Below are positions 1,985 through 11,657 of a DNA stretch of 64,000 nucleotides, piece after piece (position 1 is the first letter of the stretch; the number at the start of each line of letters is the position of its first letter). The notes under the pieces were generated by a model. The model searched no databases and was not told where the DNA came from. It was given only the letters and a program-made list of their open reading frames with translations. This DNA comes from Chlorella sorokiniana (taxonomy: Eukaryota; Chlorophyta; Trebouxiophyceae; Chlorellales; Chlorellaceae), in assembly GCA_025917655.1 (NCBI GenBank), contig CP084609.1, positions 2,170,001 to 2,234,000 of the forward strand, read 5' to 3'. The translations under genes were made by a program, and so were the position numbers.

Positions 1985-3726
1985 TCTCAACAGGTAACGC
2001 TTCCGCCGAAACTGGTCTGGGCAGCTGACTCCTAGTGTGCGAGATTGCAATCGACAGATCTGGGCGTGGTTTTGTGGCAAGGTCACCAGATGTCAATTTT
2101 TATGTGACGATGTCACGAAAGAATGAAAGCCTTGTTCACGTTCAAGCTCATTGAGCCTGCACAAGTCTTGCACCGCCGCTGTACTACCAGGCTTCCTGAC
2201 TTTTTCTCTAGAGGAGACACAGGGCTCCAATGCATGGCAATGCAAGCTCAATGGGAGAAATTCGTGTGTGATGTGCGAAAGTCGGTGAGTTTAGTGCTCA
2301 CAGAAAATGAAGAGAGCTGAAGCTCTCTTCAGACCCTTGTGCAGCCCTTCGAGCAAGTGACGATGATGTCATGCCTTCATCGCATTGGTGTGGCCGCAGC
2401 TGGGTTTTGAAGGGCAGTGATTCGCGGTGCCTGGGGCGCCGCCGCTCAGGGCGCAAAGTTGCTCCTCTGTGTCGCATCGGGCGATGCCCAGCTGCTGCTC
2501 TCTCAATTGTTCAGCACCCGCAGGCTAGCCGTCCATCTGTGCACGAGCGCATTGCTGCGCAGCCGAGGCGCAGGAGCATTGCCTCCAGCACCGGGGTGCG
2601 GCCTAGCAGCACCTGTGGCCCTCGCAAGGAGGTGAGGGGGTGCTGACGGTGCACGAGTGCTTTGGGATGGAGGGGGTGGGTGAAAGGCCAGCGTGTGCAG
2701 TAGCGCAGCGAAGAAGGGATGAGGCCGTGCCTGGCAGGGTGAGCGTTTGAGCGCTTTTCGGCTGGCTACAGCTTTCAGCGCCACCTCCCTGCCCATTAGG
2801 CTTGCTCCGGCGGCGGTCACCTGTGCCTCTTCGGTCGCTCCTACAGCCCTGCCCACACCCCCGCTGCCTGCCTGACTGTTGAACAGCATGATCATGCTGA
2901 TTGCGGCAGTGCACAGCAGCGGCTGCGCAGCGAGGGGCCAGCAAGGGCGGGAACGGAGGATGGCTTGCTGCCCCCCTTGCTGAGGCAGCCAGCGCAGCGC
3001 TGCGTCGGCGGGTGTCGCTGCCGACAGCGCTCGGGCAGTCCGCCTGCCGCAGCCTGCCCCAATCACAATCATGTGCACTATTGACCTGTCCCTGCTGCTG
3101 TGTGTTATGCGGCTGCCAGCAGGGGGGCGGTGAGGACAAGGGGGCAACGGGACGCAGATAGCATGAGATCGCCACAGCAACAGTTGAGGACAGAAGTATT
3201 TGGGGGTCTTGAATTGACGCTCTGAAAAATGCATTGCAAGGACGTAGATGATGGTTTGGGGCTGCGCTTGATGTGCTTGATGCTGGAACCGTGCGAGAAA
3301 TTCGGCGGCGGCGGCAGTTGAGCAGAGTGGCAGCGGAAGGGGCGCGGCCTGCGATGCATGCCTACAATAGACACATCGAATGTGGTTTGGGTCGCAAACG
3401 TCGCTACTGTCCGAAGGGTTCGACCGGACACATTCTATTCCCTGCCCACAAACGTGTGCAGTCGCCCCATCCCCTTTCAGCAGCCCTGAACATCCCTCAG
3501 GGGGATGTAGGAGTGGTAGACGATGAGAGATTCGGCGTGTGGGTAGTACCTCCTGACCTGCTGGCCGCCGCTGGCAGGCGCAGGCGCAAACGGGGGAGGG
3601 CAGTAGTAGACATCAAACCCAGCGCGCTGAGAGCCGCAGACGCGTGGAAATGGCATAAGTCGTTAATCGATTGGGATCGCAGGGTCGAGCAAGCCCAGAT
3701 AAGTGGTGCAGATGCCGAACGAAAGG
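1985..3726. other. 1.7-kb stretch without a firm gene
   Basis: Upstream of the secreted-protein gene and downstream of nothing recognised. A minus-strand open frame at 3234-2503 (243 aa) and short plus-strand frames exist, but they are Arg/Pro/Ala-rich as expected of chance frames at this GC, and I see no conserved motif. A minus-strand gene with exons here (for example a plausible acceptor near 2622 followed by coding-like sequence) cannot be excluded. The right end (from about 3500) is the 5' flank of the first SnoaL-like gene and resembles the flank of its paralogue. Confidence 0.35.
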
Positions 3727-3780
3727 TGGTAGCAGCTACCACCAGTGGGTGGAAAGCGGGCTGCCCTGGAGCTCATAAAA
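3727..3780 (+). promoter_or_regulatory. Conserved promoter module of SnoaL-like gene, copy 1
   Basis: A 15-bp inverted repeat TGGTAGC-A-GCTACCA (3727-3741) is followed by GGTGGAAAGCGG and a TATA-like CATAAAA (3774-3780), about 76 bp before the ATG. The same three elements in the same order precede the paralogue on the other strand (11657-11603), although the surrounding sequence has diverged. That conservation is the evidence for function; the bound factor is unknown. Confidence 0.6.
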
Positions 3781-3855
3781 GCCGCTCTCCCGCCTGTTCG
3801 TTACTCTCTCTTTCTCTGTCGACTTCTCCGCACAGGCGCCCCCCCCCCCGCCACA

Positions 3856-5858
3856 ATGCAGACCGCCGTTGCCCACAACCTGACCCTCAAGGCGGGCTCT
3901 GCCGCCACTGTGCGCAAGGCCGGTGGCCGCCGTCTGCCCGCCCTGCGCTCTGCTTCTACCGTCCGCTGCCAGGCCGCGGTGAGTCTCCTGAGCGGCATGC
4001 GCAGCCTGGGGGACAGGCAGGTGGCCTGCCTCCCGCCTTGCCTGCGGCCAACACATCCGTGCCAATGTCTCCCACGCCGTCACCAACACGCTCCACCCGC
4101 GGCCTCCCCCGCAGAATGTCCTGGCCACCGCCAAGGCCGACGAGGCTGTGACCATCCGCTTCGACGCCGCCGGCAAGCCTGTGGTGTCTCTGGGCGCCGC
4201 CGCCCCGCTGCCGCACCCGCCGCCGCCGACGAGGTGGGTGCTGGCGCAATGGCGGGCCCACCCCTTGGCCAGCACAGCCCCAGCACAGCTCCTGCGTGGA
4301 AGCAGCAGCAGCAGGGCATCTGCAGCAGCTTCAATCGTGCTTGCCTCCTCCTGCCAGAACAATGCTTGTTGCCAGCTCGGCCCCCGCTCGGCCCCCGCAC
4401 ATTGCTGTGGTAGAGTCTTGCCTCGCACACTGACGCCTCTGCCACCACCCCCCCCCCCGCAGAAGGCTGAGCTGGCTGAGCTGGCCAACCAGTTCAACGT
4501 GTGGAACTCCGCCCTGCAGACCGGCGACCCCGAGAAGGTGGCGTCCCTGTACGCCCCCGACGGCATCCTGCTGCCCACCGTCAGCAACAAGGTCCGCACC
4601 GACCACGCCGGCAAGGTTGACTACTTCACCTCCTTCCTCCAGCTGAAGCCCTTTGGCGTGATCGACCAGAGCATTGTGCGCTTCCTGACCCCGAGAAGGA
4701 TGTGGGCTCCAACAGCGGCATCTACACCTTCTCCCTGGTCAAGGAGGGCCAGCCCGTGAAGGTGGGTGGCCGGGGTGGGCCCGCTGCCTGCTACACGACG
4801 GGCTGCTGCCTGCTGTTGCCTGCTTTCCGCACTTTGTATTTATTTCTGGGTGCTTGCCTGTTTGCAACACCTGCTCTGCGATTCACCTGTTCCAATCCCA
4901 GCTCTGCACCTTTTGGCTCACCTTTCTCTCCTCCGCATCCCCTTCCCCCTTCTGCTGCAGGTCCAGGCCCGCTACAGCTTTGTGTACCGCAAGATTGACG
5001 GCGAGTGGAAGATCACCGAGCACCACTCCTCCGCCATGCCCGAGCCGGTGGTGGACCCTCTGGAGGAGGTGGCTGAGCAGTTCAACATCTGGAACGCCGC
5101 CCTGCAGACCGGCGACCCGAGAAGGTTGCGTCCCTGTACGCCCCGACGGCGTGCTGCTGCCCACCGTCAGCAACAAGGTCCGCCCGACCACGCCTCCAAG
5201 GTTGACTACTTCACCTCCTTCCTCAAGCTGAAGCCCTTCGGCACCATCGACGAGAGCAACGTGCGCTTCCTCAACGCCGCCAAGACCCTGGCGGCCAACA
5301 GCGGCATCTACACCTTTGCCCTGGAGAAGGAGGGCCAGCCCGTGAAGGTGCGCTGGGGCTGTTGCTGCGCGCTGGGTTGCGAGCTGGCGAGCGTGGCTTT
5401 CTTTGCGTTGCCTGGATTCCTGCCTGCGGCTGCATTGGTGGTGCTGCCTGCATGTTTGCTGCTTCTGTCTGCTGCATTTGCTCCAGCCTCTCATCCCTTT
5501 CCTGGCCATCCTCCCTTGCCCACCTGCAGGTCCAGGCCCGCTACAGCTACATCTACCGCAAGATCAACGGCGTGTGGAAGATTGCTGAGCACCACTCCTC
5601 CGCCATGCCCGAGCCGGTGGCTGCCCCTGCCGAGGCAGCTAAGGAGACGGTAGGTGAGCTCTCTCCCTGCTTTGAAGAAATGTTTGCATGTGCCAAGGCC
5701 TTGCGTTTTTCTGTGGCTGAGAAACTATCCAGCGCCCTCACCTCTGCACCCACGCTCCTCCCTGTGCAGCCGCGTAAGGAGGCCGTTGCCGCTGCCGCCG
5801 CCGCTGCCCCCAGCGACGCCGCCCCGCCAAGCGCAAGAAGTTCCTTGGCATTTTCTGA
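3856..5858 (+). CDS. Plastid-targeted protein with two SnoaL-like (SgcJ/EcaC, NTF2-fold) domains, copy 1
   Basis: Six exons: 3856-3978, 4115-4233, 4463-4761, 4961-5347, 5530-5649, 5770-5858, about 380 aa. Residues 1-41 (MQTAVAHNLTLK... VRCQA) look like a chloroplast transit peptide. Two tandem domains of about 125 aa follow. Each begins FNVWNSALQTGDPEKVASLY or a variant, runs through LLPTVSNKVR, KVDYFTSFL, SGIYTF and VQARYS, and ends WKITEHHSSAMPEP, the signature of the SgcJ/EcaC family in the NTF2-like superfamily. Members form small barrels that bind or isomerise hydrophobic ligands or mediate oligomerisation; the substrate here is unknown. The tail is Ala-rich, ending KRKKFLGIF. Single bases appear to be missing in exons 2, 3 and 6, and three in exon 4 (net in frame); all but one lie in C runs, so I read them as assembly errors. 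ATG context CCACAATG is good. A convergent paralogue lies at 11531-9423. Confidence 0.8.
4463..5649 (+). repeat. Inverted repeat, left arm (exons 3-5 of SnoaL-like copy 1)
   Basis: About 1.2 kb that is nearly identical to the reverse complement of 9624-10809, exons and introns alike. By eye the exons differ at very few sites; intron 3 shows about ten differences in 200 bp and intron 4 only about two. Similarity falls off abruptly on both sides (exons 1-2 and exon 6 are clearly diverged). The pattern fits recent gene conversion between convergent paralogues, not a whole-unit duplication. Confidence 0.8.
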
Positions 5859-6353
5859 GGAGCGCGGCGCACCAGTGCCCCCCGCAGCCAGCTTGAGCGC
5901 CTGCGGCCTCTGCACACCGGGCGCCCCCAGCCATGCCGCGCTCCGGGCGGGCCGCTCACCCGCCTGTTGTGCCTTGCGCCTGCGTTGTACCGCCGGGTCC
6001 CTCCCCCGGCTCCGCATGGCCCCACTCTTTTCCCCTGTACCCCCGTTGCTACCTGTTTCTCCCCCGCCCCACCTTGCTGACGCTCCTGCGTTTTCCGCTG
6101 CTGCCTGAATCCCGACGGAATGAACTCCCCTGCCTTTCATATGCTGCCAACCTTCTTGAGAGATCACAACACTGAGCGGTTGCTCATAGCCATGTGAAGA
6201 ACACAAACCGCAACCTAGTGCCAAGTGGAAAAGGCAAGGAAATTTTGAGGCAAGGGTGGTCTGTGAAAGGTGTTGAGTCTCAAACAAAGATGCTTACATT
6301 GGACAATGCCCACATGTGACACGGGCTACACGAGTCGTGCCAGCACATCTCTG
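5859..6353. other. Convergent 3' flanks
   Basis: Between the stop of SnoaL-like copy 1 (+) and the stop of the SDR gene (-). No TGTAA was found after the plus-strand gene within this stretch. TTACA (TGTAA on the minus strand) at 6294-6298 suits the SDR transcript. Confidence 0.5.
6294..6298 (-). terminator. Probable poly(A) signal TGTAA of the SDR gene
   Basis: TGTAA on the minus strand, 56 bp beyond the SDR stop codon. TGTAA is the canonical green-algal near-upstream poly(A) element. Confidence 0.5.
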
Positions 6354-8724
6354 TCACAGCGGCTTGTCCAGCCCAAACCTGCGGGCCAGCATGCCGTTTA
6401 CAGGCCAGCCCAGCAGCTTCTGCACAACACCCAGGGCCCACAAGAACAATGCAGCGCCGCCTGCAAAGAAGGACGTCGGGGCGGCCGCGGGCGCCAAGGC
6501 TGCGCAGCGCTGCCGCCGCCGTCGCCCTGAGCGGGCAGGGCGGAGCGGTTGATCACTGCCGCCACCTGGTCTGCCACTGCCTCGGAGCTCAAGCTGATTT
6601 TCGGGTCCTGCGACGCGTTCGCCCGTGCCCTGCAGGGTCCAGCGGGGCCGCAGCAAACCCTGAAACAAAAAGGCAGGCTGGGCGACCGCAGCGGCAGCAG
6701 GACATGGGGAGGGGGCCACCGCCTACAGCAGCCCAGCGGCGGTGCCTACCCGCCGAGAAACTGGCCCGACGCTGCTGGCCCAGCGTTGACCCGCCCACTT
6801 CACCCCGCGACCCACCCAAACCAACCCCCATCTCACACACAGACACACACACGCCACAGCCGGTGCCACAGCCATGCTCAAGCTTCCACCGCCTCACCAC
6901 CAAACAACGCCGCCACCTGCTCACCTGATCTGGTCTGCCAGGGGGCGGTACAGCGAGTCTGGCCGCTCGTACCGCGCCACCTGCGTGCCGCCCAGGATGT
7001 TGTCCGCAAAGGCAGTCCTGCAGAGCCGGGCAGGGAGGAAGGCAAAGGATCGAAGCTGCACACGCTGGCGCGGACGGCCTGCGCAGCGCAGCGCAGGCAG
7101 CGCAGGCGGAAGGACCGCAGCGAAACAAGAGGTTGAGGCTGCACAGGCGGGCGGTGGGGGGGGCAAGGGTGGGATTGGGCCCAGCCCTGCAAGTGCGGCC
7201 GGGGCGGGGCCAGCGCAGCACGCCGCAGCTGCCGTGCTGGGCAGCGGCAGGGGCCCTCTGTCCCCGCGTCTCACTTGATGGCGCCGGCCGTGACGTAGGT
7301 GAGGCGTACCCCAAAGGGCTCCAACTCCACTCGCAGCGAGTCACTGAGCGCCAGCAGGGCGGCCTTGGAGGCTGCAGGGGTGGGGGTGGTGGGTGGGGGG
7401 GGGGGGGGGGGGGGTGGGGGGCTGAGGGCGGAGCGTGCGTAAGAAAGTGGGTTGGCTTGGGTTAGGTTGAATGGCTGGGGGTGGGGCGGGCTGCAGGCTG
7501 AAGTCAAGGGGACCGGGGCTGGAGGAGGCGCATGCCACTTGATTTGAGCTCACAGCCCAGGGCCTGCCCCCGCCGGTGCCGCTGCGTGAGCGCTGCCTGC
7601 CCTCAACCTCTGCCAGTCGGGCGTCACAGCAGCGTACGAGCGCAGAGGCAGGCGTGGAGGCAGGCGTGGAGGCAGGCACCGCACGCGGCGTGCGCACCCG
7701 AGTAGGCGCCGCCAAAGGGGCTGGCCAGCATGCTGACCACCGAGCCAATCATGACGACGAGGCCGCCCCGCGCCGCATCATGTGCGGCGCAACCGCCTGC
7801 CGGGCCGCAGCCAGAGGGCAACGCACAGAGGGCACAGCGGTCAGGCCGTCTGGACTGGATGGTTGCACATGCGGCAGCGCAGCGCCGCTGGTGCAGCGCC
7901 GCCAGACCCAACAGAACGCCCGGCGGCGGCGGCAGCGCCAGCGCGGGGGCTGCGGCCGCTGGCCGGCTGTGGCAGGCGCGGCGTGAGCCCGCGGGTGCGC
8001 ACGCCCGGCCCACCTGCGTCACGCGCACCGCCCCAAAGAAGTTGGCAGCCATGATCTCCTGGATCTCGGCGAGGGGCTGCTCGACGATGGGGCCAACCCG
8101 GCTGAGCCTGCGGCCAGCCAGGAACCGGGCTGAGCGGGCGGGCACCGCCTGCGGCGCCGTGCGGGCCATGTGCACACTCCTGGGTGGCCTCCAGCCGCCC
8201 CAAACCAGCGCCCCCGGCTGCAGACCTGCATTGTTGACAAGCACGTCGATCCTGCCGGCCTTCTGGATCACCCGCTGCACCGCGCGGTCCACAGACTTCT
8301 GCGGCCGGGAGGCAAAGGAGCGGGTGAATGGGCATGCCGCGTGGGCTTCCACCGCTGCCGACCACCCCCTCTGCTGTGTGCTGCTGTTCCCACCTGGTCT
8401 GTCACATCCAGCTGCACAGTTTCCAGGCCCACCGCCTCCAGCTCCTTCAGCGAGGTCTGGTTTCTGGCAGAGGCAAACACGCGGTACGGGCGCTCCCCGC
8501 CAGCGCCAGCGCCCTCGGCGTGCAGGCGCAGGGCCAGCGCTCGGCCAAGCCCGCTGGAACATCCCGTTATCTGCGTGGTGTTCAAATGACAGCGCGCAAG
8601 CCAGATGAGACGGCTTGTGTTGCAATCGGGAAGACTGAACTTCCCCATAGCCTCGCAATAGCGGTGTCAATCTGTCGTCCAACGCTCTATAGCCGCTGCT
8701 GCTTACCAACACAACCAGCGGCAT
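6354..8724 (-). CDS. AYR1-like short-chain dehydrogenase/reductase (1-acyl-DHAP reductase type)
   Basis: Eight exons: 8724-8707 (six codons, MPLVVL), 8570-8394, 8298-~8228, ~8106-8014, 7796-7698, 7371-7275, 7017-6925, 6629-6354. The joined protein has the SDR Rossmann motif (VLITGCSSGLGRALAL, TGxxxGxG), an acidic turn LDVTDQ, the NNA motif (VLVNNA), the catalytic Ser strand (MIGSVVSMLASP) and the YxxxK pair across an exon join (AYS|ASKAALL). The C-terminal part (VRLTYVTAGAIK, then GWPVNGMLARRFGLDKPL) matches the layout of yeast AYR1, an NADPH-dependent 1-acyl-dihydroxyacetone-phosphate reductase of ER and lipid bodies. A lipid-precursor role is therefore likely but inferred. One G appears to be missing in exon 5, one base in exon 8, and one near the exon 3/4 join. 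The gene sits between the two convergent SnoaL-like copies. Confidence 0.78.
7395..7414. repeat. Poly-G tract of 20 in an SDR intron
   Basis: Twenty consecutive G on the plus strand (C on the transcribed sense strand), flanked by further G-runs from about 7378 to 7421. It lies in the intron just upstream of the exon carrying the catalytic Lys, so it forms a long C tract near the acceptor. Its length is likely unreliable in the assembly. Confidence 0.85.
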
Positions 8725-9422
8725 CGTGCAAAACCTGCGCTGCGAGAAGCGCGCGATCTGATTCGCAGTTCTGGTCCGCTTGAAGCAATCCAAGCAGTTC
8801 AAGCGCAAAAGCAACCGATTGTCAACGCGTGTGAGCGTAAAGGAGGATACTGCGGTGCTGTCCCGGGTTGCTATGCACAGCGCCGCGACAGCATGGTGAT
8901 GGGCAGGTCAAGATGTCGAGCTGCAGTGCTCCCTGACATTGGTGTGTGTATTCACCTGTGTCAGGCAAGCTGAAACCGCACAGTTTTCCTCTGACAATCA
9001 ATTCCCGAGTGCTTTGTTTACAAATTGGCTGAGCGGCCGGGAACGCCTTGTCAGTTGGGGGGGGCTACAGAGCAGCAACATGAAAGGAATGAAAATCCAG
9101 AAGCAATGAAATGTTGTGAGCAGAAAATGGAACTGAGGTGGGGGGTTGGGGGGGAGGGGGGTGATGTTCAGCAGCGGTTTCATTCTCGTGAGGCGGGTCG
9201 GCGGGAGGGTTGGGCAGAGGGAGGTGAAGGACACAGGGAGAGCCAGGAAGGCAGTCGGATGGAAAACTCTGCCAAGCTCCGCGCCTGTCGCGAGGTCAGG
9301 CGTCAAGGGCCATGCTTGGAGGCTGGGCACGGGCGGGGTTGGTGGACGGGCAGAGCTGCCATCAAGGGGCTCATGTGACCTCTCTGGCCGCCTCTGCCGG
9401 TGCATCGCAGTCAGCCGAGCCG
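8725..9422. other. SDR promoter side and 3' flank of SnoaL-like copy 2
   Basis: Both bounding genes are on the minus strand. TTACA at 9018-9022 (TGTAA on minus) is a candidate poly(A) signal for copy 2, about 400 bp past its stop. The part from 8725 to about 9000 should carry the SDR 5' UTR and promoter. No other feature seen; 9052-9170 is G-rich on the plus strand. Confidence 0.4.
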
Positions 9423-11531
9423 TCAAGATTGCTCCCGTTTACGCAGCTGCAGGGCAGGAAGGGGCATGAAGGAGACATCAAGCAGAGCTTGCGCGCGGCA
9501 TTGAGTTGGGCAGGCACAAGAGCATCGCAGGCAAGGAGTGCATGCACAGGAGGCCATAAGAAAGCGGCAGCTGCACGCATTTCAGTGACAGAGCGAGAGC
9601 AGCAAGGGAGAGAGCTCACCCACGGCCTCCTTGGCAGCCTCAGCGGGGGCAGCCACCGGCTCGGGCATGGCGGAGGAGTGGTGCTCAGCAATCTTCCACA
9701 CACCGTCGATCTTGCGGTAGATGTAGCTGTAGCGGGCCTGGACCTGCAGATGGGCAAGGGAGGATGGCCAGGACAGGGATGAGAGGCTGGAGCAAATGCA
9801 GCAGACAGAAGCAGCAAACATGCAGGCAGCACCACCAATGCAGCCGCAGGCAGGAATCCAGGCAACGCAAAGAAAGCCACGCTCGCCAGCTCGCAACCCA
9901 GCGCGCAGCAACAGCCCCAGCGCACCTTCACGGGCTGGCCCTCCTTCTCCAGGGCAAAGGTGTAGATGCCGCTGTTGGCCGCCAGGGTCTTGGCGGCGTT
10001 GAGGAAGCGCACGTTGCTCTCGTCGATGGTGCCAAAGGGCTTCAGCTTGAGGAAGGAGGTGAAGTAGTCAACCTTGGAGGCGTGGTCGGGCGGACCTTGT
10101 TGCTGACGGTGGGCAGCAGCACGCCGTCGGGGCGTACAGGGACGCAACCTTCTCGGGTCGCCGGTCTGCAGGGCGGCGTTCCAGATGTTGAACTGCTCAG
10201 CCACCTCCTCCAGAGGGTCCACCACCGGCTCGGGCATGGCGGAGGAGTGGTGCTCGGTGATCTTCCACTCGCCGTCAATCTTGCGGTACACAAAGCTGTA
10301 GCGGGCCTGGACCTGCAGCAGAAGTGGGAAAGGGGATGCGGAGGAGAGAAAGGTGAGCCAAAAGGTGCAGAGCTGGGATATGAATGTGAATCTCAGAGCA
10401 AGTGTTGCAAACAGGCAAGCACCCAAAGATAAATATAAATTGCGGAAAGCAGGCAACAGCAGGCAGCAGCCCGTCGTGTAGCAGGCAGCGGGCCCACCCC
10501 GGCCACCCACCTTCACGGGCTGGCCCTCCTTGACCAGGGAGAAGGTGTAGATGCCGCTGTTGGAGCCCACATCCTTCTCGGGGTCAGGAAGCGCACAATG
10601 CTCTGGTCGATCACGCCAAAGGGCTTCAGCTGGAGGAAGGAGGTGAAGTAGTCAACCTTGCCGGCGTGGTCGGTGCGGACCTTGTTGCTGACGGTGGGCA
10701 GCAGGATGCCGTCGGGAGCGTACAGGGACGCCACCTTCTCGGGGTCGCCGGTCTGCAGGGCGGAGTTCCACACGTTGAACTGGTTGGCCAGCTCAGCCAG
10801 CTCAGCCTTCTGCAAAGGGGGAGGGGTGGTGGCAGCAGGGTGGCGTTGGAGAACATTGGCTGAGGGCCGGAGCGTGGTGACGTGAGCTGGTTGTAGGTTT
10901 GCTGCTTGATGCTGAACTTTTCGTACGCATGCATGGCGTCAAGCAGTTTCGCACACAGGGGGCAGAAAGTTGCAATGTAAAAGCAAGCCACAAGGCAGGC
11001 AATGCAATGCCCATGTGACATACCAGCCACGTGCGGCAACCCCTGACGCACCTCGTCAACCGGGGCAGGCGCAGCGACGGCGGGGCGCCCAGAGACACCA
11101 CAGGCTTGCCGTTGGCATCGAAGCGGATGGTCACAGCCTCGTCGGCCTTGGCAGCCTGCAAGGAGGGGGTGGGAGGTGATCGAGGTGATGTTGGAGAAGA
11201 TGGGTCTCAGCGATCTGGCAGGAAAAGGCTACACGAACTATTCGCGATGGCATGTGAAGAGCAATGGAGCGGCGAGCAGGCCCCGAGGGGACGCCAGAGG
11301 TCAAGGTAGGCATGGATGCAAGGCACTGCCGCCGGCAGCACCAGGGCACAGGCTGCAAGGTCGGGCTGAAGCGTGCTTCGCATGCGTACTATGCATGGTT
11401 CTCACCACGGCCTGGCAGCGGATGGAGGAGCCGGCACGCAGGGCCGGCAGGCGGCGGGCACCAGCCTTGCGCACGGCGGCGGAGGAGCCCGCCTTGCTGA
11501 GGGTCAGGTTGTGTGCGACGGCGGTCTGCAT
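9423..11531 (-). CDS. Plastid-targeted protein with two SnoaL-like domains, copy 2
   Basis: Minus-strand exons 11531-11406, 11155-11052, 10809-10511, 10312-9926, 9743-9624 and probably 9446-9423, about 354 aa. The exon-intron plan matches copy 1 exactly in exons 3-5 (299, 387 and 120 nt). The transit peptide (MQTAVAHNLTLSKAGSSAA...) and exon 2 are clearly diverged from copy 1, and the C-terminus is shorter (LRKREQS instead of an Ala-rich tail). Both SgcJ/EcaC-type domains are present, with the same motifs (LLPTVSNKVR, DYFTSFL, SGIYTF, EHHSSAMPEP). The same single-base losses seen in exons 2, 3 and 4 of copy 1 recur here at the same places. With identical domains the enzymatic or binding role should equal copy 1; the differing ends could change import efficiency or partners. 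Confidence 0.78.
9624..10809 (-). repeat. Inverted repeat, right arm (exons 3-5 of SnoaL-like copy 2)
   Basis: Partner of 4463-5649. The two arms are separated by about 4 kb holding the SDR gene. Intron differences show that the two arms were assembled separately and are not one segment duplicated by the assembler. Confidence 0.8.
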
Positions 11532-11602: not shown

Positions 11603-11657
11603 GCTTTTATGTGGTGCACTCCGCCGCTTTCCACCAGCCCAATGGTAGCTGCTACCA
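11603..11657 (-). promoter_or_regulatory. Conserved promoter module of SnoaL-like gene, copy 2
   Basis: Reading on the minus strand: inverted repeat TGGTAGC-A-GCTACCA (11657-11643), then GGTGGAAAGCGG, then CATAAAAGC (TATA-like, 11611-11603), about 72 bp before the ATG. Same order and near-identical spacing as the module at 3727-3780. Confidence 0.6.

Follow-up and report, generated by a model that had tools for sequence, protein, structure and literature searches.

A 64,000-nt window of Chlorella sorokiniana contig CP084609.1 contains two paralogous genes that face each other across an SDR gene. One PsaD exon of the assembly shares 80 of 83 residues with chain D of 6zzx, a Chlorella entry. 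Copy 1 lies at 3856-5858 on the + strand, and copy 2 runs convergently from 11531 to 9423 on the - strand. Both are described by six-exon models, in which all 10 of the 10 introns have GT-AG boundaries. In copy 1, exon 1 (3856..3978) encodes a transit peptide ending in VRCQAA, exon 2 (4115..4233) a linker, exon 3 (4463..4761) most of domain 1, exon 4 (4961..5347) the end of domain 1 with its HHSS motif together with most of domain 2, exon 5 (5530..5649) the end of domain 2, again with HHSS, and exon 6 (5770..5858) a long C-terminal tail, PRKEAVAAAAAAAPSDAAPAKRKKFLGIF. The corresponding exons of copy 2 are found at 11406..11531 (transit peptide ending in IRCQAV), 11052..11155, 10511..10809, 9926..10312, 9624..9743, and 9423..9446 (short tail LRKREQS). 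Exon 3 spans 299 nt and exon 4 spans 387 nt, and the remaining exons measure 24-126 nt. When apparent single-base drops in runs of C are read through, the encoded proteins have 380 (copy 1) and 354 (copy 2) residues, and in each of them a transit peptide with RCQA at its end is followed by a short linker, the two domains in tandem, and a tail. The convergent arrangement around an SDR gene, which was proposed in a preliminary description of this DNA, is borne out by these models and by the adh_short match of the intervening gene on the - strand. Moreover, introns 3 and 4 occupy equivalent spots in domains 1 and 2, after GQPVK and before VQARYS, which suggests that the domain repeat probably arose by duplication of an intron-bearing segment.

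Both genes are best read, from sequence comparison, as double-domain iota-class carbonic anhydrases (CAs) of the COG4875/LCIP63 type. The top Pfam match was CaMKII_AD (PF08332), an NTF2-fold domain, for domain 1 (E 2.3e-19, 70.2 bits) as well as for domain 2 (E 1.1e-17, 64.8 bits), against a cut-off of 22.1 bits, while DUF4440 and SnoaL_3 also passed their own cut-offs. The earlier label of "double-SnoaL-like" is thus loose rather than wrong, but CaMKII_AD matches better, and iota-carbonic anhydrase is the better name. In NCBIfam, both domains match the SgcJ/EcaC model. This supports the family assignment, as the prokaryotic homologues of LCIP63 are filed under SgcJ/EcaC in passages of Jensen et al. 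(PMC6776030), which also define the iota class by this domain with (H)HHSS. With domain 1 as the sole query, a PDB search returned 3h51 (E 8e-38) and the iota-CA of Bigelowiella, 7c5x (E 3e-6), of which no individual stretch passed by itself. The sequence EHHSSAMPE is present in both domains of both copies. Likewise, Thr, a Tyr at Thr+15, and HHSS are found in both domains of copy 1, in the copy 2 protein, and in two bacterial relatives, although the Thr of domain 2 lies where apparent C-run drops had to be read through. These relatives (L011 and L012; 56 and 54% identity) were the two recovered from 121 pattern matches in a scan of prokaryotic genome contigs. The active site is given as Thr, Tyr, His, and Ser in part of the text of PMC8395977, which describes it as kept in the Thalassiosira pseudonana domains. 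The two products are probably CAs that interconvert CO2 and bicarbonate in the plastid for the carbon-concentrating mechanism; the plastid-type transit peptide with RCQA was judged by eye.

Comparing the pair with known systems, it becomes clear that LCIP63 of T. pseudonana is similar in having tandem CaMKII_AD domains each with HHSS, a plastid-type N terminus, and Thr and Tyr 15 apart. However, LCIP63 has four domains and a bipartite endoplasmic reticulum/chloroplast signal, whereas the Chlorella proteins have two domains and a simple transit peptide and are encoded by two facing, homogenised genes. The same domain (3h51 vs domain 1, E 8e-38) occurs in the Xanthomonas campestris CaMKII-AD protein 3h51 and in the Burkholderia territorii iota-CA, which are single bacterial domains with a signal peptide. 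Hirakawa et al. (PMC8132391) give an identity of 42% between 3h51 and the B. territorii iota-CA, with the CA activity of 3h51 not confirmed; there, the COG4337 members are described as metal-free and 3h51 as a structural relative. The COG4337 iota-CAs (Bigelowiella natans Bn86287 and Anabaena all2909) share a related fold and HHSS with our domains, and domain 1 matches 7c5x weakly, but they belong to another COG, and Anabaena all2909 was absent among the five PDB sequences found at E up to 1. Membership of this metal-free group was considered and rejected because 7c5x is a far poorer match than 3h51 and the SgcJ/EcaC model, although no COG search was made. The iota-CAs are a recently described class, whose members in green algae are known chiefly from database hits (PMC6776030). 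The same source places LCIP63-like sequences in Chlorophyceae and Trebouxiophyceae, with two-domain forms in some Chlorophyceae, and reports CA activity for a two-domain variant. The locus adds a double-domain pair from a green alga, together with its gene structure, the promoter elements common to both copies, and their contrasting tails.

The two genes are alike in a patchwork manner. The preliminary description had pointed to an inverted repeat with arms of ~1.2 kb, and this repeat was recovered at 4459..5665 in copy 1 (+ strand) and 9608..10813 in copy 2 (- strand), in stretches of 730 nt at 98% and 439 nt at 97% identity. A base-by-base alignment, in which the regions were delimited one base away from the final exon models, shows a single difference in the 300 aligned bases of exon 3 and another in the 387 of exon 4. 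Intron 4 has 2 differences in 182 and intron 3 has 10 in 197 with 3 additional gap columns, while 8 of the 120 bases of exon 5 differ. Introns 1 and 2, which were said to have diverged, indeed gave no alignment above controls shuffled by dealing out non-overlapping dinucleotides: the observed score was reached by 117 of 200 shuffles for intron 1 and by 18 of 200 for intron 2. The 3' flank behaved similarly (105/200), and the alignment of intron 5 is confined to its first bases (1/200).

Across the whole arm, 26 of 1208 columns differ, and these differences are clustered. The best segmentation by Bayesian information criterion (BIC) divides the arm into 4459-4831 (1/373), 4832-4894 (11/63), 4895-5627 (7/734), and 5628-5665 (7/38), and this four-segment mosaic has a BIC of 237.2 vs 258.1 for one segment. 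The second segment is a diverged, older-looking island within intron 3 (counterpart ~10440-10380), which breaks a recent tract spanning ~4459-5498. In addition, identical runs of 290, 276, and 259, the three longest, sum to 825, a value reached in none of 20,000 permutations. Near-identity sets in sharply at 4459/10813, the acceptor of intron 2, whereas on the right side, identity decays from somewhere in 5499-5628. Of the sharp edges reported earlier at 4463/10809 and 5649/9624, the left one therefore stands, within a few bases, but the right one is a decay.

Synonymous divergence (dS) follows the same pattern. It reaches 0.374 in exons 1-2 (19 of 64.5 sites) and 0.264 in exon 5 (6 of 27) but only 0.013 in exons 3-4 (2 of 159.3), or 0.014 for exon 3 and 0.011 for exon 4 taken singly. 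This corresponds to an ~30-fold lower synonymous divergence in exons 3-4 than in exons 1-2 (Fisher p 7e-10), and exons 3-4 have no amino acid differences. As an internal control, domains 1 and 2 of copy 1 were compared with each other, giving a dS of 0.25 with 100 of 128 residues identical, and codon constraint alone therefore does not give a value of 0.013. The inter-domain dS is itself lower than the 0.37 of exons 1-2, though the domain repeat should predate the gene pair; either silent sites may have saturated early, or the domains may also exchange sequence. Given the mosaic segmentation and its dS, exon 5 has not been freshly converted, and the recent tract does not have its edge at 5649. 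The earlier view that exons 3-5 and their introns are nearly identical thus holds for exons 3 and 4, intron 4, and most of intron 3, but not for exon 5 or the intron 3 island.

Taken together, the drop in dS, the contrast of nearly identical introns 3-4 with introns 1-2 that do not align, and the mosaic identity strongly support ectopic gene conversion, as first proposed in the preliminary description. We are confident, though short of certain, that this is an inverted pair of double-domain iota-CA paralogues whose exons 3-4 and introns 3-4 have been homogenised by recurrent conversion. Recurrence has to be weighed against a single replacement or partial duplication, in which an exon 3-5 block was copied once onto an older paralogue. 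One continuous block does span most of the similarity, and the island could be a local mutation or microsatellite-like change. However, an island with 11 of 63 columns differing between segments of 1/373 and 7/734, plus an exon 5 of intermediate divergence, needs at least two ages or an interrupted tract. The single event is thus unlikely, although we would still give it some weight, and the island and exon 5 suggest that the pair was homogenised at more than one time or that the tract was interrupted.

Several points weigh against this main reading. Conversion was judged from two copies in one assembly. The dS values come from few sites and strongly GC-biased codons, and the longest identical run alone (290) is mildly unusual within the arm (p 0.019). 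Introns 3 (4762-4960) and 4 (5348-5529) of copy 1 also resemble each other, with a score of 28 vs a maximum of 24 in 200 shuffles, which may be left over from the duplication of the domain or result from shared simple motifs. Finally, neither gene is open as assembled: copy 1 has six apparent single-base drops and copy 2 has five. These are located in exon 2 (one in each copy), exon 3 (one, in both copies), exon 4 (three, in both copies), and exon 6 of copy 1 (one).

The broken frames raise the possibility that both genes are pseudogenes whose real frameshifts were spread by conversion; the four drops in exons 3-4 are identical. Yet every drop removes a single base from a C-run, and the exon 2 drops lie in differing contexts in the two copies. 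The splice sites and domain residues are otherwise intact, and exons 3-4, as noted, encode no amino acid differences. A like defect is also found outside the pair. Among three tubulin loci examined, an exon of beta-tubulin L016 (on C9; ~502-534 of the locus, - strand) is interrupted by a one-base C-run drop, and the assembly seems to carry C-run indel errors. L014, the other of the two recognisable beta-tubulin loci, has no clear C-run drop, and its break may be an intron; L013 is a diverged tubulin. We therefore favour C-run assembly errors as the probable source of the shared frameshifts and regard the pseudogene explanation as improbable.

Such errors could be taken to imply that the homogeneity itself is an artefact, in which assembly or polishing overwrote one copy with reads of the other; polishing is ambiguous in near-identical repeats, and all four exon 3-4 drops occur in both copies. 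However, the arms are flanked and separated by differing unique sequence, and the 26 differing columns cluster. Polishing could erase true differences and thereby sharpen the tract but could hardly create it, which leaves this account with little probability.

The inverted arms could also serve for a reversible inversion, in which crossing-over between them inverts the SDR segment and exchanges exons 5-6, with the C-terminal tails, between the two promoters. Each copy would then keep its promoter, transit peptide, and exons 1-4 but continue into exons 5-6 of the other, and the SDR gene would be reversed. The arms are indeed inverted, ~1 kb long, nearly identical, and inside the genes, and both reading frames would survive a flip, but the assembly holds one orientation, and no observation requires a flip. 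We consider an inversion to be highly unlikely. The same low probability applies to its extension, in which the homogenised arms would act as a recombination switch between two alternative pairs of iota-CA isoforms, with conversion keeping the catalytic crossover zone intact. The cruciform suggested earlier is implausible, judging from the size of the loop (~4 kb). The least probable account, which we give almost no credence, dispenses with conversion and has purifying selection on the catalytic domains plus codon usage keep exons 3-4 alike; these exons do encode the domains, with a codon use that looks biased by eye, but introns 3-4 are nearly the same in both copies and introns 1-2 cannot be aligned, domains 1 and 2 differ at a dS of 0.25, and exon 5, also domain-coding, shows 0.26.

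Recurrent conversion could have proceeded as follows. An old duplication would have given two copies, whose exons 1, 2, 5, and 6 and introns 1, 2, and 5 have drifted since. The long exons 3-4 would keep uninterrupted homology, such that the inverted copies, ~4 kb apart, may pair and be repaired from each other, with introns 3-4 carried along. Exon length may matter here, as exons 3-4 may be the sole stretch long enough to start pairing. Conversion would be repeated and without crossover, its last round presumably recent, and each tract would end where homology is lost (intron 2) or fading (exon 5/intron 5). Conversion may have run in either direction, and the likeness of the two catalytic parts may be favoured or a by-product. 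On this reading, the pair is a clear natural example of intron divergence setting limits to conversion, and the age of the duplication would be masked in trees built from the catalytic exons of pairs like this one. A comparable layout is known from Chlamydomonas reinhardtii, in which CAH4 and CAH5 are nearly identical CA genes that lie close together in inverted orientation, although they are of the beta class and mitochondrial. Conversion and iota-CAs are each of known kinds, and their combination is a useful further example.

The regions outside the converted tract differ in how far they have diverged. The transit peptides are of the same type, with the RCQA motif in both and 33 of 41 residues identical between the copies. 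Upstream of the genes, 3507..3814 (copy 1) and 11860-11568 (copy 2) are 59.7% identical over 313 columns (E 8e-13; 0 of 200 shuffles). Both upstream regions contain a 15-bp palindrome, at 3727..3741 on the + strand for copy 1 (115-129 bp upstream of the start codon) and at 11643..11657 on the - strand for copy 2 (112-126 bp upstream). It occurs exactly at 2 places in the assembly, against none for a reversed control pattern, and is expected 0.10 times per window even at two mismatches. The copies are likely to be under shared regulation. The tails, on the other hand, differ in kind, being long and basic in copy 1 and short in copy 2. The divergence described earlier for the transit peptides and the C-terminal exon consequently applies fully to the tails, while the transit peptides have diverged yet remain similar. 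Similarly, the idea that conversion lets targeting and tail evolve is weakened by the like transit peptides and promoters and retained for the tail, which alone differs in kind. We suggest that the tails, not the targeting peptides, are the place to seek a division of labour.

No further member of the family was found. The exon 3-5 DNA matched 2 places in the 38.8-Mb assembly, which are the two genes, and all 10 matches of a domain 1 protein search fell within them. A scan with PF08332 gave 7 matches, of which 6 lie in the two genes and 1 at C4:88385-88453. The last was rejected as a third iota-CA (- strand; L017 3886-3945), as it has HHHAS rather than HHSS, scores under the cut-off (18.4 bits), and has no convincing neighbouring exon; this short, exon-like match, which covers the end of the CaMKII_AD profile, perhaps belongs to another NTF2-like gene. 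These assembly searches, which revealed only the two genes, worked exon by exon on the best-scoring candidates, and a very diverged third gene could escape them. In viral contigs, the domain 1 search matched 2 stretches, neither confirmed as a relative, and a DNA pattern for the HHSS region had no matches. The relatives from prokaryotic genome contigs, both being bacterial, are uninformative on conversion. A literature search covering iota-CA in Chlorella and gene conversion with CA or Chlorella paralogues found no report of this gene pair.

The 13-bp core of the upstream palindrome, GGTAGCNGCTACC, occurs at 4 places in the assembly vs 1 for the reversed control. The two sites beyond the pair are at C2:517423-517435 and C10:1135652-1135664. 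The core does not suffice as a regulon marker; the C2 site has no clear promoter by eye.

The SDR gene between the copies extends over 6921..8570 on the - strand, with approximate limits, especially at the 3' end, as its exons were joined by eye from open reading frames. The joined peptide matches adh_short at E 4.1e-44, and its best solved structure is 17-beta-hydroxysteroid dehydrogenase 1 (E 1e-31).

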